This document shows positions 11,595 through 36,047 of a stretch of DNA of 42,538 nucleotides, piece after piece. The stretch is from a virus. Under the pieces are notes generated by a model that was not told the origin of the DNA, did no database searches, and was given only the letters and a program-made list of their open reading frames with translations. Numbering within the stretch: the first letter of the stretch is position 1; every line of letters begins with the position of its first letter. The DNA is taken from positions 1 through 42,538 of IMG/VR virus record IMGVR_UViG_3300046012_000602. The stretch is one strand, 5' to 3'. Position numbers and translations under genes: made by a program.

Positions 11595-11891
11595 TTATAC
11601 CTTCCCCTCCAATTGTGCATTTAAACTTACGTCCCTATTTTGTTCTTTACGCTCGGCCTCCGCTCGAAGTTCATCGGGGCTGGGTGGTCGAACAATTTTT
11701 GACCCATTGGTATCATCAATAGTATAACTATGACTCAATTCATTATGAACAATGAATGTTCCATCAGGAAAAGTATACACAACGTCTTTTATGCCCATCG
11801 TATTTCTCATTCCTTCTAATAAAATATCATTTTCCCCTGAGGTTAAAATAACCTCCTTACCACTTTTAAAAACTATCATATATTCTTTCAT
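11595..11891 (-). CDS. Hypothetical protein after GroEL
   Basis: 98 residues. The first 70 look like a small antiparallel beta domain (MIVFKSGKEVILTSGENDIL, VVYTFPDGTFIVHNE); the C-terminal 30 are charged and helical. It overlaps the groEL stop by 4 bases (ATGA), so its translation is coupled to the chaperonin. A GroEL-linked accessory role is only a guess from position. Confidence 0.6.
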   Translation of the reverse strand: MKEYMIVFKSGKEVILTSGENDILLEGMRNTMGIKDVVYTFPDGTFIVHNELSHSYTIDDTNGSKIVRPPSPDELRAEAERKEQNRDVSLNAQLEGKV

Positions 11892-13480
11892 TGTGTTGCT
11901 TGTTTAACAGGTACTTCAACAATTAGTCCCTCAGCCGTAAACATAGATGAGGCAACGGTTACCGCATTTTCTAAGGCCAAGCGGATCACCTTGACCGGAT
12001 CAACAACCCCAGCGTCGAGTAAGTTTTCTACTTTATCAGTATTGACGTTAAACCCTCTATTTGTCTGCGTCGGCACGATCTTGTTAATAATACGCGTCGC
12101 CTCTATTTCGCTTTTCCCCGCGTTTTGTAAAAGTTTTCGTAATGGTTCATCTAAGGCATTGCCTAAGACAACTGACCCCTCATCGAGCCGATCTGCCCGC
12201 GCTAACTGCTCGGCAAGCAAAATAAAGGCCATACCCCCTCCGATCACAATGCCCTCCTCTAGGGCTGCTTTTGTTGCACCGACGGCATCTTTGACCTTTT
12301 CAAGTTTTTCCCGCTTTAATGTATCTGATCTTGCGCCGACTTTAATAAGGGCAACGCCTGCGGTCAATTTCCCTAACCGCTCCTCATATTTTTCCCGCTC
12401 ATATAAGCTAATATCTCCGGCCCCTTTTTTCTCTCGTAGTTCCGCAACGCGAACATCAATAACCGCTTGCGCTCCGGTTCCACCTACTATGGTAGTTGTG
12501 GTTTTATTTGCCGAGATATGGGAGGCCCCCCCACAATGCGAATTATGAAATGACTCAGTCTGTGCGGTAATCACCCGTGCGCCAGTAATTGCCGCAATAT
12601 CATTTAGTACGGCTAATCGCTGCTCTTGGTAGCCGGGGGGGTTAACGGCAAGTATTTGAAATACACCGCGTACCTTATTTAAAATAACTACATTAAGCGC
12701 ATCCCCGCGCACATCACCAAAAATAACAATATTTTTACTTTTCTTTGCCGCCTCGTTTAACACGGGGACGATCTCATTTTGTGAAGAGACAACTTTCTCA
12801 AACACAATAACAGCGGGCTCAACAATAATAGACTCCATACGCATATCATCGGTAACAAACATCGGGTCGATATAGCCTTTTTGTAATTGCATCCCTTTCG
12901 TTATCTCATTGGTGATCGTTAGTCCGTTTCCCTCCTCAACGGTAACAATACCATCTCGTCCCATCTCATAAACGGTATGAGAAACAATCTCGGCTATTTC
13001 CTCATCATACGAAGAGGAGATAAGCGCGACTTTTTTTAACTCAGCTTGGGTTTTTACTTTTGTGGATAACTTGTGGATATCTTTTAATAAATAGGCCAAA
13101 CTAGCCAGCATTTGCGAACGCAGTACCATGGGATTTATTGGGGATTCCGTTCGATCAATCGCCTCGATAGAGGTTTTGAGAATATGGTAGGCTAAAATAA
13201 TAGAGGTGGTTGTCCCATCCCCCGCATCGGTGACGGTATTTTGCGCGGCCTCGCGGATGAGATCAATACCAACATTGGCAAACTCATCCTCCGAGCCTAT
13301 TTCTTTGGCTATTTCAATACCATCGTTAATAATACGCGGTAAGCCCCAGGGACGAGCGTAGGCAATATTTCTTCCTTTTGGGCCAGAGGTAGGTGAAACA
13401 AGATCATAGACAATTTTTGCGCCTAGAAGCAATTTCTCCCGTGCCTCTCGCCCAAGTAAGAATTTCTTTTTGACAGCCAT
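11888..13480 (-). CDS. groEL: Phage chaperonin GroEL (Cpn60)
   Basis: 530 residues, full length for Cpn60. ATP-driven ring chaperone. Conserved elements are TSGPKGRNI (31-39, nucleotide loop), NDGIEIA (52-58), AGDGTTT (86-92, containing the catalytic Asp88), the apical domain in the middle, IGGGMAF (about 403-409) and AGVVDPVKV near the end, the second ATP-site Asp. The GGM-repeat C-terminal tail of bacterial GroEL is absent; it ends VEVPVKQATQ. It lies 2 bases after a GroES gene in the bacterial groES-groEL order, so a complete two-part chaperonin is encoded. Confidence 0.95.
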   Translation of the reverse strand: MAVKKKFLLGREAREKLLLGAKIVYDLVSPTSGPKGRNIAYARPWGLPRIINDGIEIAKEIGSEDEFANVGIDLIREAAQNTVTDAGDGTTTSIILAYHILKTSIEAIDRTESPINPMVLRSQMLASLAYLLKDIHKLSTKVKTQAELKKVALISSSYDEEIAEIVSHTVYEMGRDGIVTVEEGNGLTITNEITKGMQLQKGYIDPMFVTDDMRMESIIVEPAVIVFEKVVSSQNEIVPVLNEAAKKSKNIVIFGDVRGDALNVVILNKVRGVFQILAVNPPGYQEQRLAVLNDIAAITGARVITAQTESFHNSHCGGASHISANKTTTTIVGGTGAQAVIDVRVAELREKKGAGDISLYEREKYEERLGKLTAGVALIKVGARSDTLKREKLEKVKDAVGATKAALEEGIVIGGGMAFILLAEQLARADRLDEGSVVLGNALDEPLRKLLQNAGKSEIEATRIINKIVPTQTNRGFNVNTDKVENLLDAGVVDPVKVIRLALENAVTVASSMFTAEGLIVEVPVKQATQ

Positions 13481-13482
13481 AG

Positions 13483-13785
13483 TTATTGTTGTATTGCTCC
13501 CATGATAAATTTTGTGCGTATAAAATTATACTCCTTGCCCTGGTAAGGTATTTTATTAGCCGTATACCGTTCATAAAAAATAAGATCGCCCGGCTTTAAT
13601 GCAATGGGAAACTTATGTTTTGTATCTGAATTTTTCCCAATAGCCACCACAACACCCTTTTCCGGCGTGCGTGCTTTTTCCTCAGCCGAGGGCGCGTTGC
13701 CGATAAGCACACCATTTTCCGTTACATCCTCCGGCGGTTCGGTAACAATAATAATATCACTCCAGGGTAAAATGGCATTTGGCAT
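13483..13785 (-). CDS. groES: Co-chaperonin GroES (Cpn10)
   Basis: 100 residues, the usual Cpn10 length. Lid of the chaperonin ring. PWSDIIIVTEPPEDVTENGVLI resembles the GroES start (LxDRVLV...), with the hydrophobic tripeptide of the mobile loop as GVLIG at 25-29. Later KGVVVAIG, LKPGDLIFYERY and the final strand before GAIQQ fit the Cpn10 barrel. Two bases separate it from groEL, so both are made from one message. Confidence 0.88.
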   Translation of the reverse strand: MPNAILPWSDIIIVTEPPEDVTENGVLIGNAPSAEEKARTPEKGVVVAIGKNSDTKHKFPIALKPGDLIFYERYTANKIPYQGKEYNFIRTKFIMGAIQQ

Positions 13786-17615: not shown

Positions 17616-17620
17616 TATTG

Positions 17621-17692
17621 CTCCACAGAGAGGACTCGAACCTCCAACTTACCGATTAACAGTCGGTTACTCTACCGTTGAGTTACTGTGAA
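17621..17692 (-). tRNA. tRNA-Asn(GTT)
   Basis: 72 nt cloverleaf. Acceptor TTCACAG pairs with CTGTGGA, D arm ACTC/GAGT with a GG-containing loop, anticodon stem ACCGA/TCGGT with loop CTGTTAA (anticodon GTT at 17660-17658), T loop TTCGAGT, discriminator G. CCA is not encoded. Confidence 0.93.
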
Positions 17693-17697
17693 GTATG

Positions 17698-17769
17698 TTC
17701 CGCCTCGTGGAGTCGAACCACAATTAGCTGTTCCAGAAACAGTCGTCCTACCGATTAGACGAAAGCGAA
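17698..17769 (-). tRNA. tRNA-Gln(CTG)
   Basis: 72 nt. Acceptor TTCGCTT/AGGCGGA with wobble pairs, D stem GTCT/GGAC, anticodon loop TTCTGGA (anticodon CTG), T arm TGTGG-TTCGACT-CCACG, discriminator A. The outer pair of the anticodon stem is an A-C mismatch. The weak first acceptor pair is usual for glutamine tRNAs. No encoded CCA. Confidence 0.88.
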
Positions 17770-17775
17770 TAGTTG

Positions 17776-17846
17776 TTCCGCTCCAAGGAATCGAACCTCA
17801 ATCTCTGGGGCCAAAACCCAGCGGTCTACCTTTAACCTAGAGCGAA
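17776..17846 (-). tRNA. tRNA-Gln(TTG)
   Basis: 71 nt. Acceptor TTCGCTC/GAGCGGA, D stem GGTT/GACC, anticodon stem CTGGG/CCCAG with loop TTTTGGC (anticodon TTG), T loop TTCGATT, discriminator A, no encoded CCA. Its acceptor is nearly identical to that of the neighbouring Gln tRNA, so the two may be an old duplication. Confidence 0.92.
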
Positions 17847-17847
17847 G

Positions 17848-17919
17848 TCAAGGAGGGGAATTATGCTATCCCGATCTCATGTTCCCAAAACATGCGCTTT
17901 TCTTCTAAGCTACTCCCTG
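17848..17919 (-). tRNA. tRNA-Pro(TGG), atypical elbow
   Basis: 72 nt. Acceptor CAGGGAG/CTCCTTG, D stem GCTT/AAGC, anticodon stem CATGT/ACATG with loop TTTGGGA (anticodon TGG), discriminator A as in proline tRNAs. The D loop AGAAGAA lacks the conserved GG, and the T arm GGGAT-AGCATAA-TTCCC lacks TTC and has a T-T mismatch at the 53-61 pair. Both sides of the elbow contact are missing, so it may be degenerate, decoy-like or specialised. Confidence 0.7.
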
Positions 17920-17938
17920 GAATGTTTTTAAGATGATG

Positions 17939-18009
17939 CGGGGTTGGCAAGAATCGAACTTGCGGTGTAGAGTTTGGAGGTCTATGGTTTACCACTAACC
18001 TACAACCCC
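17939..18009 (-). tRNA. tRNA-Trp(CCA)
   Basis: 71 nt. Perfect acceptor GGGGTTG/CAACCCC, D arm GGTT-AGTGGTA-AACC, anticodon loop CTCCAAA (anticodon CCA), T arm GCAAG-TTCGATT-CTTGC, discriminator G as in tryptophan tRNAs. The innermost anticodon-stem pair is C-C. It reads UGG only, so UGA is not recoded. No encoded CCA. Confidence 0.92.
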
Positions 18010-24670: not shown

Positions 24671-24940
24671 TTATTTCCCTCGCAATGCTCGTGCTTTGGC
24701 ACGCAGTTCTTGACGTAATTTGTTACGATTTGTTGAAGTAAAGATACGTCCACATTCTGGACAAGTGACTTCTTCCTCTGGTATTAGTTCCATGTGTATG
24801 TCGAGGAAAAGGGTGAAAAGATCCTCAGATAGAATATTTTTCTTCACTGAACTAGGTTCATCTGGGTCCATTAGCATCTCGGCATTGTCTCTTATTGTTT
24901 TGCTTATCCTCTCTTCGATTGTTTGTTTGGTAAGTGTCAT
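24671..24940 (-). CDS. Small protein with one zinc knuckle
   Basis: 89 residues. Helical and acidic for 55 residues, then VTCPECGRIFTSTNRNKLRQ, a single CxxC knuckle as in C2H2-like or half zinc ribbons, and a basic end. GAGGATTAAC before the ATG is a fair ribosome site. Function unknown. Confidence 0.58.
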   Translation of the reverse strand: MTLTKQTIEERISKTIRDNAEMLMDPDEPSSVKKNILSEDLFTLFLDIHMELIPEEEVTCPECGRIFTSTNRNKLRQELRAKARALRGK

Positions 24941-24941
24941 G

Positions 24942-25175
24942 TTAATCCTCTTCGAGCCATTTTTTTATATTTTTCTTCACTAACGTTGCATATTGATTAA
25001 ATCCGACATATTCGCTATTTGATAATTGCTTCGTATCATTTTTGGGCAATAAACCAAGCATAACCTCGCTTATTGCATAATACAACATATTCAACTCGTC
25101 GCGGCTCAAGTAGATATTATTTCGTTCAAGCATTTGTTGTATTTCCTTGCGATAAATATATTTATGATTCTTCAT
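24942..25175 (-). CDS. Hypothetical small protein
   Basis: 77 residues, helical, basic (MKNHKYIYRKEIQQMLERNN). Overlaps the end of the amidotransferase gene by 14 bases and is followed one base later by the next gene, so it is part of the same polycistron. No family recognised. Confidence 0.58.
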   Translation of the reverse strand: MKNHKYIYRKEIQQMLERNNIYLSRDELNMLYYAISEVMLGLLPKNDTKQLSNSEYVGFNQYATLVKKNIKKWLEED

Positions 25176-26229
25176 AATACGGTGAATGTTTTAGAAAAAA
25201 CTCATAATATTCCTTTTCTGATAACAATAGAGCATCTTTAATACCATGCGTATTAATACAAGTAGAACAAACAACCGATCGTATATCATTATCTAGGTGA
25301 ATGCCGTTTTTAGGAGAAATAATACTCGCACAATAGCCACAATAGAGTAGTTCCCATTCGTCAGTGATTATTTGTGATGTTGCTGGTTTCTCAATTAAAG
25401 TAGCAGCCGTTGTTGTCTTTTTTCCTTTTGCAAAATGACCTGTTTTCTCATTAAAGACATATGCTTCACTTCCGGTATCAATTTTTGGAGCTTTGTATTT
25501 TTGCCAGTTATCTTTTATCACATATTTTTTAAACGATATAGGATTAACTTGTATAGAAAGATCGGTTAAATCAACAATATGCACCATATCTGTTTCCGGT
25601 TTCCAATAAGTATAATTTCCTTGTGGGAGTACCGCGCTAACGACTGATTGAAGCGCAGTAAGCTCACTACACCAAAACATACACTGTAATTCTGGTACAT
25701 CAACAAGAAAAAGAGGATTTCCAGAGACAACAAAATAAAACAAAGTTGGCTTAGTTATATCATACCAAGTAAGCGCAAATTGTCCGGTTAGTTTTGCAAA
25801 TGTTTTTTTATAGTCATTATGCGACTCACGTAGGAGATTAAAAATAACCTGACTATCAACCTCAACTTTTGGATCAATTGATAAATAGTTTGTTACCACA
25901 CCATTATGACACCCCACGATTGTCCCACGACGGTAGGGATGAGCGTTAGGCCGTGTAATTGCTCCATGCGTTTTCCACCGCGTATGCCCGATAACAATAT
26001 GTGGGCTATCCTTAAAAATATCATTAAAATCTTTTGTATGGGCAAAAGTATAGGAGTCAATAATATCTTTCACAATGCCATTGGTAGTAATTCCATGGTA
26101 TGCAACGCCGGTGCTATCCGTTCCACGCGATTGCATGGCAACAAGTAGGCCGGTAACAATAGCGCGTTGTTTTTTACGAATACTTTTTGTTACTCCTTGT
26201 TGTGAAACAACACCAGATAATCCACACAT
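25162..26229 (-). CDS. Class II glutamine amidotransferase with zinc-ribbon tail
   Basis: 355 residues. Ntn-hydrolase glutaminase: releases ammonia from glutamine for a partner synthetase. The chain starts MCGLSG, placing the catalytic Cys at position 2. SRGTDSTG, IGHTRWKTHG, VGCHNGVVTN and VDSQVIF are the expected GATase II motifs, in order. No synthase domain (such as sugar isomerase) follows; instead residues about 295-335 carry CGYC and CSTC, a zinc ribbon. The ATG overlaps the amidoligase TAA (TAATG), so the two are made together and likely form one amidation system. Confidence 0.9.
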   Translation of the reverse strand: MCGLSGVVSQQGVTKSIRKKQRAIVTGLLVAMQSRGTDSTGVAYHGITTNGIVKDIIDSYTFAHTKDFNDIFKDSPHIVIGHTRWKTHGAITRPNAHPYRRGTIVGCHNGVVTNYLSIDPKVEVDSQVIFNLLRESHNDYKKTFAKLTGQFALTWYDITKPTLFYFVVSGNPLFLVDVPELQCMFWCSELTALQSVVSAVLPQGNYTYWKPETDMVHIVDLTDLSIQVNPISFKKYVIKDNWQKYKAPKIDTGSEAYVFNEKTGHFAKGKKTTTAATLIEKPATSQIITDEWELLYCGYCASIISPKNGIHLDNDIRSVVCSTCINTHGIKDALLLSEKEYYEFFLKHSPYYEES

Positions 26230-27569
26230 TATGTTTGTTCCTCCACATTACCAACGCCAGTTATTCTAGTTTCTAAATTACCATATCTAGATATGGTAAG
26301 CTCATTACTTCTCCATGTTAATTGCTCCACGCTTGCGCTACTAAGAATAGGTTTTTGTACCGGCTTGAAGGAATGGGATCGCTTCTGTTGCATCCACGAC
26401 GGATGGTGTCGATTAATTCTTGTTTTCATATAGGCTGTCATTTCGGGTGAAAGGCCAAGTATCTTTACTGTTTGCTTAAAAAGAGAGTTATTACTTGAAA
26501 GTCGATACAATCGAGTAACCGCATTGCTATTATATGATGTTGCCGCATAGTTGATTATATGTAATAACAACTCACACCAGCGAAGTATTTTAATAGGATT
26601 GATTGTGCCCGTGTGGTGGCGAAATTCAACCGTTCCACGAAAAAATATACTATGAAGATTAAGCCCAAAATATCGAGTTAAGTCATATTTACCACATCGA
26701 CTAATATTCGTCGTTCGTTTATACCATTGTCTGCGTACTTTTTTATCTCTCATTCTACTCGTAATATCTGAAAATTGGTAACGGTTTGCAAGCGGCATAC
26801 AATACCGACTTTGTCCGCGTTCAGGCGAAAGCATTGCGTAAAGGATTGGCTCAATAGCATACATAAAACGAAATAACTTCCCAATACGATCTTGATGCTC
26901 TTTAAAATCTCTGGCATCAATATGCACATGCAAACCACAGCGACTGCTTACTGAAAAACCGCTTTGTTTAAACGCAGCACATGCGTTAAAAATACCCTCT
27001 TCAAGTAGATCTAAGCTATTTGGTGGTGTTTGCACCTCGGTGCCACTGGTAAGTGAACCATCATTACAAACCCCCGCTGTTTTATGGATAAGGGTTAATA
27101 ATTTAGTTCTATTGCCGTCCTCTGCCTCTATTTCACACCCGACAAGACGATTAATAGTAATATATTTGCCTTTTACTCCATATTTGTAAGCATTGGAAAC
27201 TCCCCGAGTTACCGAGGCATGTCCTCTAGCCAAATGATCTCCGAGACAGCCCGGACAATATGTTAAATTACAAAAATCACAGCGCATGTTTGATTGTAAA
27301 AAAAGACTACAAAGCGCACATGGAGGGCCAAATCTTGCCTCCCCACAGTTGCGACAACATATACCATCAGGGCTTCTATATGCAACATAGGAATGTGCAT
27401 AGTGCCATTCGTCACAAATTGTACATACAAACGCTATGTCCTTGCAGTTATTGCAAATAATTACACTTTTATGATCTTCTACTCTCATTAAAAATGAAGA
27501 ATCCTTAGCAACGATATTATTGCAACGCACACACATAACCATTGCTGTATTATTTTCTCTATTTTCCAT
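26229..27569 (-). CDS. Amidoligase (COOH-NH2 ligase) with N-terminal zinc ribbons
   Basis: 446 residues. The first about 115 carry at least seven CxxC knuckles (CVRC, CNNC, CTIC, CRNC, CALC, CDFC, CPGC), several zinc sites. The rest matches the AmidoLig_2 family of the glutamine-synthetase/GCS fold: GCEIEAED (about 144), NDGSLTSGTEVQTPP, CGLHVHID, and FRGTVEFRHHTGTINP, which provide ATP, metal and carboxylate binding. It joins ammonia or an amine to a carboxylate. The paired glutaminase suggests ammonia. The substrate could be a peptidoglycan peptide, a host protein or a small metabolite. Confidence 0.88.
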   Translation of the reverse strand: MENRENNTAMVMCVRCNNIVAKDSSFLMRVEDHKSVIICNNCKDIAFVCTICDEWHYAHSYVAYRSPDGICCRNCGEARFGPPCALCSLFLQSNMRCDFCNLTYCPGCLGDHLARGHASVTRGVSNAYKYGVKGKYITINRLVGCEIEAEDGNRTKLLTLIHKTAGVCNDGSLTSGTEVQTPPNSLDLLEEGIFNACAAFKQSGFSVSSRCGLHVHIDARDFKEHQDRIGKLFRFMYAIEPILYAMLSPERGQSRYCMPLANRYQFSDITSRMRDKKVRRQWYKRTTNISRCGKYDLTRYFGLNLHSIFFRGTVEFRHHTGTINPIKILRWCELLLHIINYAATSYNSNAVTRLYRLSSNNSLFKQTVKILGLSPEMTAYMKTRINRHHPSWMQQKRSHSFKPVQKPILSSASVEQLTWRSNELTISRYGNLETRITGVGNVEEQT

Positions 27570-31644: not shown

Positions 31645-31920
31645 TTAGGATAGCGTTACATGTTTCCATGCAACACCCGTCCAGATGTATAACTTAAAAC
31701 TATCAGTAGCAAAGTAGATGCCATTTGATCCCGTGGTCGTTGTTTCTCCCACCGCGGGTAAATTCGCATCTAATCCGGTACGTATATAGATATTACTTTC
31801 TCCTAAATGTCGTTGTTTTATGGCATTGGGCGCAACGTCTAATTGTTGCGTACGTTTGGCAACTAAGCTAGCTACTGTTTTTTCTAGTTGTGTAATGCGG
31901 TTGGCTATAGACTTGTCCAT
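31645..31920 (-). CDS. Small tail protein, coiled coil plus beta domain
   Basis: 91 residues. Residues 1-25 form a short trimer-type coiled coil (ITQLEKTVASLVAKR); the end YFATDSFKLYIWTGVAWKHV resembles the small beta head found in phage fibre tips. Its ATG overlaps the hub stop (TAATG-type), so it is made with the hub and may attach to it. Confidence 0.6.
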   Translation of the reverse strand: MDKSIANRITQLEKTVASLVAKRTQQLDVAPNAIKQRHLGESNIYIRTGLDANLPAVGETTTTGSNGIYFATDSFKLYIWTGVAWKHVTLS

Positions 31921-34900
31921 TATAATGATGCGCTCTCATCCGATTCAGTTAAGAGCATATCGACATCTTGTGAATGTTCTAAGAGCACCGGAGAGATACC
32001 CGAGGAGGCATATAAATCAGTTGCAATTTGGATAGCATGAAATTGTCCCCCATCGGCAGCGGGAATGGGTAAGCGGGTTTTTGTATCACCGACAACTTGC
32101 CCGCTTATGCCTAAATTATGCCAATTATCCTCATAATTAATTTTATACTTCACATCAACATTGGCCCCGATGCCTAAAGGTAAATGATCGGCGCGTATTG
32201 TTAGCTCCTCTTTATTTTTATAATATGCCCCTAAATCAGTAATAATCTCCTCAAGCGTGCCGGTTGTTTGCGGGGCGTTATTAATATTAACATTGTCAAT
32301 GCCATTTGCGACGTTATCTTGCCAGCCGATTAATAAATCACCACCGACGGGTAAAAGAAGCCCCATTGCGACACTTGTTCCCCGGTTACCGGTTGAAATA
32401 GGGTAATCATACGAAAGGGATTTATTAGGATAGTTAATAGTATTCGGCGTTCCCCAGGTATATACGCCCCGCTCAAGCGTGGTACTATCCGAATTATAGC
32501 CTACAGAAATACGCAGTAATGATTGCCAATACGTCATACCCGAGGGCAATACTTCCATATAGTTCCCCTTGCCAATTTTGGGAATGCGTTTGACCTTAAC
32601 AGCCATATCCGCTCCGGTATACTCCAATAAATCCCCCTTATACCCGGCCATAATATATAAGGTTCCATTTTCCCCATACATTGCATTGACCGCGCCTTGC
32701 GGGGTATAGAAGAAGGAATTGTAGGTGACGGAGTACCCATCCCATAAAAACACCATGCCCTGATCGAAATCTTTTATGGCCGAACCTTTCCAGCAACCAA
32801 TGGCATAATATTCATTCCATACCGCAAAACACCGAACGCGCCAGCCAGCAGGTAAACGCAAGCGTTGCGCCTTATATCCCGCCGCGTTAAAACCCGGCTG
32901 CCCATCCCCACCCGCTGCGGATAGCTTTGCAACGTAGCGACCATTACCGATAAGCAGATCATTAATTGCTTGATAAATAGGGTGAAAATCATAATCCGTT
33001 AATAAAAATTGATAGTAGGTATTATAAGTCGCGGTTGTAATATCCGAGGCCGATCCGGTGACAATACTCCCATCACCTACCGTGCTATATAAATGAATAT
33101 GATAGGTTGCCCCAACAACGGGCGTAAATACCGCAGAATAAACAAATTCATACAGTCCGCTACTGGGTAAACTTGCCGTTACTACCGTCATTTGTTCCAC
33201 AACTTGATTAAGGCCATTATGTACGACAAGCGTCCAATCGCCCGTTCCTTTCGCCGATATATTTATTTGAAATGATTTTTGTGGGTCTTGTGCGGGAACA
33301 AAACTTAACGCAGCGGCCTCAGTTAATACCGTCGGTAATGTATAGATTTGCCCGGTACCGCCGCCGGTTTGATCTAAATCCAATCGCGCCGTCGCGCCGG
33401 AAAAAGGCACATCGGTTACATACCCAGGCGTAGACGATCCGGTGGGCACAACATTATTTGCGTTAGCGGTAAGATCATTAGGCGAGGCGGTTAAAAACCA
33501 TTCACCAACTAGCCCACCTCCAACCCCTTCTAAGTTAATAAGATTATTTGCAATAAACTGTGCCTGGGTTTGTTGAGTATTCCATACGCGTACATCATTG
33601 ATATATCCATCAAAAAAGTTTCCATAGGCCGAAGCACCAAAATCAGCACCAATAGCAAAATCAGCAGAGGAGGCACTAATTGCGGTTTTCGTCCCCGTTG
33701 CCGTGCCGACAAGGTTTCCTCCCTCGTAAAATGTTGCGGTAGACGTGGCAGAGGTCCACGACACTTGCACACGATCCCATGTTCCAATTGCTATATTTTG
33801 TAATGTTTGGGTTAAATATTCAAACGCTGTCCCATCATTAGAAATGCCTAATCGTACTTCATAACTCGTCGTAGTAACTAAGGTATTATCTTGAATGGCA
33901 TTAAGCGTGGGAGTCGTCGTCCCGCTCACCGAGGTTAAATAATCAATAACACAATACCCGCTTCCCCCATGTCCATTCGAGGAACCTCCGGCCTCTTGTG
34001 CTGATATTTGGGCTGTTCCTAGCGTAGCGGTTTGAGCGCGGAGAAGAATAGAGCCGCCACCACCACTTGACCCGCCGACCGTTGTTGCATTTGCGCTAAT
34101 AGTTGCCGAGGCCCCCATGGTTAAACTAGCCGTAATAATATACACAATACCTCCACCATTACCCCCTGTTGCATTTCTACTTAGTGTCTCATCGGCCGTT
34201 CCGCCCCCACCCCCGCCAAAAGTTAACGTCGCTAGGTCAGTTGATCCAGATGTGCCGCCTGGTGTCCCCCGTTGGGCTAAATTAGTAGCGGTGCCATACG
34301 CTCCGGCGGTTTGATTACCCCCGCCGCCTCCGGCTGATTCGGTATGGTCTTGTAAGCCTCCGCCCCCACCATTACCGTTAGCGGCTTGTGATTGCGTTCT
34401 TGTGCCCCCCGTTCCCTCTCCTTGAAAGGCTTGATAGGGCGACGTTCCATCTCCACCCGCACCACCACGAAAGCCACAGCCATCTGCCACAATAGAGCCA
34501 TTATTAACGGTATTTTGTGCCCTGTAGGTAATAATACCCCCCACGGTGCCATTCCACGCCTTTGCCGTAAGTGCAACACCGCTATTAATAGTAACCGTTG
34601 CATATTGTTTTTGAACAATCACCTGGGCAGTATTTCCCCCCGAGGAGTTATAGGAAAAATTGAGTGCATCTTGTGTCGTGATAATATTATTCGTGCCGTC
34701 GTAGCCTTGTATGGTGGTTTCTTGTCTCGTTCCCGCCCCGCTTCCTTGCATTTGAATGATTAAAATTTTCTGTCCCACTGCAAAAGAGGCATTGGTGGCA
34801 AAAAGTTGATTTGTATTAATAGTCCCCGAACAGGCCGAATCAATAGGACTATCGGTTGTATTACTAGATATAGTTAAAGATCCATCAGCTTGCGTACCAA

Positions 34901-36047
34901 ATACGCCCGATATGCCCAAAATATCCATAATATAGCCTCGGTGATTACCGCTTTCCTTCCATAAGCCAACTAGTGTCATAGAACTCCCCACGGCGGGAAG
35001 CGAGGCGGGTTTGATAAATGCCTCAAGTGAAAGATCGCCCGTTACTTTTAACGCTGAGGAGGGAGTTGTTTTGACCGCATAATCAGAATTTGCCGCTACG
35101 ACAGAAAATGAATTAGTATTTGTCGGCACACCGCCTATTGAAGCTAGATAATCAGATACAAACGTCGGTGTTCCCGAGGAGATAGGGCCATATCTTCCAA
35201 TAGCATTATCGCTTGTAATATATAAATAATCCTGCTCGCCGTAATACCCTAACCCATTACCATGCGAGTTAGGCATAGTAAATAGGTTAACCGAGGCACC
35301 ATTTGAATATCTTTTATAGACATTTCCTATATCATCGGTGATAAATGTCGCCAGGGAATTAATTTGTATAAGGCTAAACGCATCATAAAAAGCTGTCAAA
35401 TTCCCACCGGCGTTAAAGATGTTAAGAAAGATACTGGTATAAATACCACTGTTAAATGTTACGGTAATAGGCACCCAGGAGGAAGCAGTATCGCCAAGTA
35501 CCGTATCGGCAATAAGTAAATTAGCCCCGCCTATGGCCCCGCCTTGAATTTGTAAATGTGCCCCTGAGCCGCTAGTAATTGCCACCCTTGTATAAAAAAT
35601 AAGCTGATAATCGGTAAACTGCGTCGTGGGAATGCCCGAGCCTGAGGCCGTTGTAAACGCTACTGATCCGGTTGTGGATACCTGTTTAATCGAGTGTGTG
35701 CCAAGATATGCTTGTGTGGTACTCCGCGAAAAGTCTGCACCCAACGTCCAACCGGTTGTATTAGTCTCAAAAGAATTATTACTAATAAGGTTGGTACTAT
35801 TTCCCAAGGGTGCGGTTCTTCCGACAACTTGCTCGCCCCATTTTGGCAAGCCTTTTACTAATGATTGGCCGACTTCAAGAATTGGTTGGGGTAAAAGGCT
35901 AATTTGGGAGGGTTCAGTTCGATAATCAACCCCGCGCGCCCATAGATAGGAACCGCCGAGCTTATTAAAATCAGAAAGACCATCAATCCATGAATTGATC
36001 GGAAAGACACGCCGAGAGTTTTTTGTATTCGCTAGAAACGATGCCAT
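31920..36047 (-). CDS. Tail hub / adhesin with nested lectin-type domains
   Basis: 1375 residues. Residues 1-82 look like the start of a podoviral tail hub. About 83-231 resembles a CBM4/9-type jelly roll (NLISNNSFETNTTGWTLG). About 232-331 has propeller-like strands. A LamG/concanavalin domain starts near 332 (LKVTGDLSLEAFIKP), is interrupted near 395-715 by a glycine-rich module with GGGGG runs, and resumes at about 715-870 (YINDVRVWNTQQTQAQF). A second jelly roll and more propeller strands follow. Probably the receptor-binding hub at the tail. A promoter sits 8 bases before the ATG. Confidence 0.7.
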   Translation of the reverse strand: MASFLANTKNSRRVFPINSWIDGLSDFNKLGGSYLWARGVDYRTEPSQISLLPQPILEVGQSLVKGLPKWGEQVVGRTAPLGNSTNLISNNSFETNTTGWTLGADFSRSTTQAYLGTHSIKQVSTTGSVAFTTASGSGIPTTQFTDYQLIFYTRVAITSGSGAHLQIQGGAIGGANLLIADTVLGDTASSWVPITVTFNSGIYTSIFLNIFNAGGNLTAFYDAFSLIQINSLATFITDDIGNVYKRYSNGASVNLFTMPNSHGNGLGYYGEQDYLYITSDNAIGRYGPISSGTPTFVSDYLASIGGVPTNTNSFSVVAANSDYAVKTTPSSALKVTGDLSLEAFIKPASLPAVGSSMTLVGLWKESGNHRGYIMDILGISGVFGTQADGSLTISSNTTDSPIDSACSGTINTNQLFATNASFAVGQKILIIQMQGSGAGTRQETTIQGYDGTNNIITTQDALNFSYNSSGGNTAQVIVQKQYATVTINSGVALTAKAWNGTVGGIITYRAQNTVNNGSIVADGCGFRGGAGGDGTSPYQAFQGEGTGGTRTQSQAANGNGGGGGLQDHTESAGGGGGNQTAGAYGTATNLAQRGTPGGTSGSTDLATLTFGGGGGGTADETLSRNATGGNGGGIVYIITASLTMGASATISANATTVGGSSGGGGSILLRAQTATLGTAQISAQEAGGSSNGHGGSGYCVIDYLTSVSGTTTPTLNAIQDNTLVTTTSYEVRLGISNDGTAFEYLTQTLQNIAIGTWDRVQVSWTSATSTATFYEGGNLVGTATGTKTAISASSADFAIGADFGASAYGNFFDGYINDVRVWNTQQTQAQFIANNLINLEGVGGGLVGEWFLTASPNDLTANANNVVPTGSSTPGYVTDVPFSGATARLDLDQTGGGTGQIYTLPTVLTEAAALSFVPAQDPQKSFQINISAKGTGDWTLVVHNGLNQVVEQMTVVTASLPSSGLYEFVYSAVFTPVVGATYHIHLYSTVGDGSIVTGSASDITTATYNTYYQFLLTDYDFHPIYQAINDLLIGNGRYVAKLSAAGGDGQPGFNAAGYKAQRLRLPAGWRVRCFAVWNEYYAIGCWKGSAIKDFDQGMVFLWDGYSVTYNSFFYTPQGAVNAMYGENGTLYIMAGYKGDLLEYTGADMAVKVKRIPKIGKGNYMEVLPSGMTYWQSLLRISVGYNSDSTTLERGVYTWGTPNTINYPNKSLSYDYPISTGNRGTSVAMGLLLPVGGDLLIGWQDNVANGIDNVNINNAPQTTGTLEEIITDLGAYYKNKEELTIRADHLPLGIGANVDVKYKINYEDNWHNLGISGQVVGDTKTRLPIPAADGGQFHAIQIATDLYASSGISPVLLEHSQDVDMLLTESDESASL

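Follow-up and report, generated by a model that had tools for sequence, protein, structure and literature searches.

An amidoligase gene coupled to a glutaminase gene

The window, by which we mean the whole stretch of 42,538 bases that was analysed, is a virus record whose completeness is not stated. Its minus strand carries two adjacent open reading frames, one for a COOH-NH2 ligase of the Amidoligase_2 family with an N-terminal region of putative zinc ribbons (446 residues; 26229-27569) and one for a class II glutamine amidotransferase, or GATase (355 residues; 25162-26229), hereafter the ligase and the glutaminase. Such a pair had been recognised in an earlier note on this DNA and it proved to be real, as both proteins match their Pfam families above the curated cut-offs. 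The same note had described the two as fused by a TAATG junction. The TAATG is indeed present (26227-26231, minus strand), with the TAA of the ligase and the ATG of the glutaminase sharing base 26229, but the frames are separate and overlap only as stop and start, which rules out a literal gene fusion. A GGAGG (26240-26244, minus strand), located 10 nt upstream of the glutaminase ATG, is the likely ribosome-binding site of the second gene, and the one-base overlap of stop and start recurs in three loci of other phages (L004, L005 and L032). Judging from this arrangement, the two frames appear to be translationally coupled genes.

The ligase matches Amidoligase_2 (PF12224; E=7.9e-23, 82 bits against a cut-off of 22) and the PHROGs amidoligase family phrog_2443 (E=9e-28). 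Its catalytic core, spanning residues from about 141 to 345 (26535-27149, minus strand), is modelled by AlphaFold with pLDDT mostly above 88 (78.6 on average for the entire protein). E146, E148, D170, S172, E178, G212, H214, H216, R251, N304, E315 and R317 are identical in 36 of 36 homologs. The top PDB structural matches of the model are YbdK and glutamine synthetase, with low TM-scores (about 0.3) for a query that holds extra domains and low-confidence parts. Taken together with the PF12224 assignment, these matches point to a glutamine-synthetase-like fold. The PDB sequence search with the ligase returned only lipocalin matches at chance level.

The assignment of the glutaminase is based on GATase_6 (PF13522; E=1.5e-11, above the curated cut-off), phrog_4736 (E=5.3e-36) and the GlmS glutaminase fold. 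The domain occupies residues 1-230 (25540-26229, minus strand), up to the end of which pLDDT is at about 90 or above (mean for the whole model, 79.6), and the model matches the glutaminase domains of GlmS, PurF and EgtC in the structure search. The residue set characteristic of class II glutamine amidotransferases is complete: a Cys directly after Met1, R84, N109, G110 and D125. Cys2 is kept in 29 of 30 homologs, the remaining one having a gap, and all 30 keep H82, R84, T87, H97, P98, H108, N109, G110, D125 and S126. We considered whether the protein might be a GlmS orthologue and ruled this out, as it scores 69.7 bits against an equivalog cut-off of 418, the match stops at residue 245 and there is no isomerase domain. 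As the earlier note had proposed, a putative zinc ribbon lies at the C-terminus, where GlmS has its isomerase domain. Loss of the catalytic residues, which that note had named as a point against the pair, is not seen at the sequence level: Cys2 is present and the acidic, His and Arg set of the ligase is identical in all 36 homologs. Both enzymes thus look catalytically intact, and both would be expected to be active.

The pair follows tail-type genes and precedes small genes of unknown function. A terminase, a portal protein and a major head protein were identified in the window, together with a sub-threshold match to an SU10-type adaptor; among the window proteins tested, neither a tail tube nor a sheath or tape measure protein came to light. 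The podovirus-like character that the earlier note had suggested is therefore a possibility only. When the right half of the window was compared with phage genomes at near identity, nothing matched, and single-protein scans of IMG/VR gave one weak locus. Directly downstream of the pair, a small protein (24671-24940) has a CPEC motif resembling the Rad50 zinc hook (PF04423, E 3.2e-6) and may be another zinc-binding partner. Elsewhere, the window encodes a complete GroES-GroEL-like pair (11888-13785; Cpn10 at 13483-13785 and Cpn60 at 11888-13480), and GroEL models score above their NCBIfam cut-offs for this Cpn60 of a 42.5-kb virus record. Four tRNA genes (Asn, Gln, Gln and Trp; ARAGORN) are clustered at 17620-18009, and a fifth, at 17848-17919, comes from Rfam only. 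A protein of 1375 residues with a LamG-type lectin domain (31920-36047) is probably a tail fibre or adhesin.

Zinc regions of the two proteins

The N-terminal region of the ligase (residues 13-108; 27246-27533, minus strand) was delineated from alignments of 22 and of 7 homologs and by a shuffle test. It consists of three conserved CxxC..CxxC units, formed by C13, C16, C39 and C42, by C49, C52, C72 and C75, and by C84, C87, C105 and C108. Each of these twelve cysteines is kept in 20 to 22 of 22 homologs, whereas a further CxxC (C97/C100) and H112 are not conserved among them. The "about four" N-terminal zinc sites of the earlier note can therefore be narrowed to three conserved ribbons, with C97/C100 as a possible additional site of local occurrence. 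A chance cluster of cysteines can be rejected, since the seven CxxC pairs found in the 125 N-terminal residues were reached by only 3 of 20,000 shuffles of those residues. The alternating pattern is reminiscent of LIM or treble-clef zinc ribbons. In the Pfam scan of the isolated zinc regions no zinc family rose above its cut-off, and the model of the third unit has low confidence values; metal binding by the ligase is for this reason predicted from its cysteines. Among the structural matches of the ligase model is A0A6J7X2B6 of an uncultured Caudovirales phage (BFVD; 408 alignment columns), annotated as "LIM-domain containing", this name being the only source of its likeness to LIM proteins.

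The ribbon of the glutaminase (CGYC...CSTC; C297/C300...C321/C324) covers residues 297-324 (25258-25341, minus strand). C321 and C324 are aligned with cysteines in 25 of 30 homologs, and two CxxC pairs were reached by 175 of 20,000 shuffles of the C-terminus. The window protein has one such ribbon, many of its relatives two or three. CxxC pairs are also present at the C-terminal ends of the glutaminases of PaP3, TC6, GP100, QDWS535 and KpnP_VR7901. Since PaP3, TC6 and GP100 have the glutaminase ribbon even though their ligases lack a zinc region, the ribbon does not depend on a zinc-bearing ligase.

Distribution and neighbourhoods of the zinc-type pairs

For the comparison of neighbourhoods, only the ligase was used to collect IMG/VR loci, so that their selection took no account of the glutaminase. 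The broad alignments A1 and A2 offered no stretch conserved enough to serve as a query, and A3, A4 and A9 were used instead. The sample comprised 56 non-redundant viral amidoligases, 26 with and 30 without a zinc region, classified simply by how many CxxC pairs they contain. In this sample, which was seeded with the window's own family so that its figures lean towards the relatives of the window, a glutaminase lies within 3.5 kb of 25 of the 26 zinc-type ligases but of only 11 of the 30 others (p 2.7e-6). Of the 25 glutaminases next to zinc ligases, 24 end in a ribbon, as opposed to 4 of the 11 next to the others (p 2.8e-4). That the zinc ribbons of the two proteins belong together, a suggestion of the earlier note, gains indirect support from this co-occurrence. 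GGCT shows the opposite trend, being found within 5 kb of none of the 26 zinc-type ligases and 14 of the 30 non-zinc ones (p 2.7e-5), while ATP-grasp does not separate the groups (3/26 and 4/30).

Distances between ligases are correlated with those between their glutaminases (Mantel r 0.52, rising to 0.67 for loci having the gene order of the window; p 2e-4), although such a correlation would also arise if both genes were inherited along with the genome. When mapped on a quick tree built from the ligase cores, the zinc label changes five times, compared with a mean of 26.7 for shuffled labels, and the starred branches force two of these changes. The label is clustered, then, but does not form a single clade in this quick tree; the five rows nearest to the window are all of the zinc type. 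With twelve cysteines in three units ahead of the core, the window ligase fits the lineage of zinc-ribbon amidoligases that we propose.

The nearest relatives of the pair (L234-L237) have the ligase followed by the glutaminase, as in the window. Apart from the pair, these loci have almost nothing in common with the window, and the two genes accordingly behave like a movable unit. A different order prevails in a large group of environmental phages, namely (first ligase), glutaminase, a protein of about 100 residues, zinc ligase, PD-(D/E)XK nuclease and two more conserved genes. In many environmental phages (for example, at L024:2659-7239, L241:2796-7122 and L245:2736-7053), two amidoligases flank one glutaminase, and a conserved gene for a protein of about 100 residues separates the glutaminase from the second ligase. 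Tandem duplication of the set into ligase-glutaminase-ligase-glutaminase was seen in L034:3862-8594 and L038:3881-8312.

The pair also occurs near TraG/TraD-like coupling proteins in contigs assigned to Omnitrophica (L178 and L180) and Paceibacterota (L177). RadC and a replication-relaxation protein accompany it in L178, and homologs of these are present in L180. All three contigs derive from metagenome bins or single cells, and their host labels may be wrong; the neighbours are nonetheless conjugation genes. In L178 (5304-12402), the pair is situated between RadC and a CBASS-like cyclase with a patatin phospholipase, a CapP-like gene lying between. PADLOC matched no defence model to the ligase or the glutaminase of the window. 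Occurrence in unrelated viruses and beside conjugation genes makes a role in lysis alone unlikely. Protection from the phage lysin, which the earlier note had considered, accordingly becomes less likely as a general role, given that the same pair adjoins conjugation genes.

Possible function and relation to known systems

A glutaminase and one ATP-dependent carboxylate-amine ligase constitute the minimal set for glutamine-dependent amidation, a logic familiar from MurT-GatD and AsnB/LtsA-type enzymes. We consider it fairly probable that the present pair forms a two-subunit complex of this kind, in which zinc ribbons hold the subunits or the target and which alters a host structure for the resident element. 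The class II glutaminase would free ammonia from glutamine at Cys2, a step to which its residues point strongly. The ligase, to judge from its glutamine-synthetase fold and conserved residues, would use ATP to activate a carboxylate and join the ammonia to it, yielding an amide. The tandem ribbons of the ligase and the ribbon of the glutaminase might, as their co-occurrence suggests, keep the subunits attached to each other or anchor the complex to its target, be it a macromolecule or the cell wall. Both partners retain zinc regions, whose probable purpose is therefore either contact between the subunits or the recognition of a large target. Thus, sequences and models allow the reaction class, glutamine-dependent amidation, to be inferred well, and a docking role of zinc only weakly; for the substrate, the best reading is a carboxylate on a macromolecule or on a peptide of the wall. 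Given that unrelated viruses carry the pair and that it also accompanies conjugation genes, it would most likely change a host structure to the advantage of the resident element, this structure being either the envelope (leading to exclusion of competitors) or a host protein.

These two targets correspond to two readings that we regard as possible, though neither as probable. According to the first, the pair is a reduced form of a published phage cassette and amidates a D-Glu or diaminopimelate carboxyl of a wall peptide or its precursor, thereby altering envelope recognition and excluding superinfection. Homologous ligases and glutaminases do stand within the cassettes of PaP3, TC6, GP100 and QDWS535, and AsnB/LtsA-type class II GATase enzymes amidate diaminopimelate. 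On the other hand, wall-related genes are absent from the immediate surroundings of the pair, the additional cassette genes were not found in the window, GGCT is missing throughout the zinc lineage of our sample, and zinc ribbons are more usual in protein or nucleic-acid recognition. The earlier note had arrived at the same idea; as a specific claim it is not supported, nothing in the window or in the relatives points to D-Glu or diaminopimelate, and what is left is a hypothesis already in print. The ligase and glutaminase pair in phages and the proposal of wall modification against superinfection had both been published before (Iyer 2009 via PMC10580990; PMC5498523; see also PMC3890496, PMC6209634 and PMC11945000). 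We found no experimental test of the wall or superinfection role in the literature.

According to the second reading, which we hold equally tentatively, the complex amidates Glu or Asp side chains or the carboxy terminus of a specific host or viral protein recognised by the ribbons. The tandem LIM-like ribbons of the ligase are kept across the lineage, one structural match is annotated as containing a LIM domain, and the depupylase Dop, an enzyme acting on protein tails, shares the ligase fold (rank 49 among the structural matches). That the pair accompanies conjugation genes and is not confined to phages is in keeping with this reading. Against it, the neighbourhood of the pair holds no conserved protein that could be a candidate substrate, the nearest relatives having almost nothing but the two genes in common with the window. 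A broader reading, in which viruses and conjugative elements share a zinc-ribbon-targeted, glutamine-dependent amidation complex that acts on a host macromolecule, whether protein or envelope, to exclude competitors or blunt host defence, distinct from the known multi-ligase cassette, is more speculative still.

Alternatively, a class II GATase could supply some other amine in place of free ammonia, or the ligase could link one amino acid to another. It seems unlikely, however, that the ligase links an amino acid or another amine to the carboxylate of a peptide or small molecule, with the glutaminase acting separately or transferring the amine. Gamma-glutamylcysteine ligases, which are relatives in fold, do join amino acids, and amidoligases without a nearby GATase are common among the non-zinc viral cases (19/30); yet zinc-type ligases hardly ever lack the glutaminase (25/26 have it) and the two genes are tightly coupled. 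Modification of nucleic-acid bases is a weak candidate, as supporting genes were not seen among the proteins scanned.

Amidoligase and glutaminase genes are common in phages and have remained unexplained, the wall or superinfection role being repeated from paper to paper. With two genes, intact active sites and no accessory ligases, the form described here represents a simple system for finding the product, and its zinc signature makes the lineage recognisable. The pair itself and the wall idea have been published, whereas open-access papers gave us no account of the conserved zinc domain of the ligase or of its co-occurrence with the glutaminase ribbon, although Iyer 2009 may mention zinc ribbons on these enzymes.

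Among individual enzymes, YbdK (a GCS2-like ligase) and glutamine synthetase share the fold of the ligase core, but at about 10% identity; the window ligase has the additional N-terminal zinc region and a different substrate is expected. The glutaminase domain of GlmS, PurF and EgtC have the fold and active-site residues of the window glutaminase, which instead of an isomerase, phosphoribosyltransferase or other synthase domain carries a zinc ribbon. Among gene sets, a close counterpart is the "peptidoglycan modification cassette", named as such in many podoviruses (PMC5498523) and exemplified by phiEco32, PaP3/LUZ24, PA11/TC6 and PSA-HP1 (Iyer 2009 and Hardies 2013, as cited in PMC5498523 and PMC10580990). 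It too contains Amidoligase_2 and class II GATase homologs, which frequently lie side by side in the order seen here, and some of its GATases likewise end in a CxxC ribbon. In contrast to the window, the cassette adds ATP-grasp, a PF14395 ligase and often GGCT, and its ligases have no N-terminal zinc region. None of the three additional genes was found in the window, either with profiles built from phage members (E<=1e-4) or in Pfam scans, and we reject a full cassette in this record. Two-gene arrangements are known as well. OM43 phages have PF12224 and PF13522 genes by the report of PMC10580990, the source of this likeness, which for phiEco32 cites Iyer 2009. In Arthrobacter phage Ottawa, gp65-66 encode the ligase and then the glutaminase with no ATP-grasp, as in the window, but neither protein carries zinc regions. 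The chemistry of the window pair is ordinary; what is unusual is the paired zinc regions and the presence beside conjugation genes. Within the known phage amidoligase/glutaminase pairs, the zinc regions appear to mark a distinct lineage.
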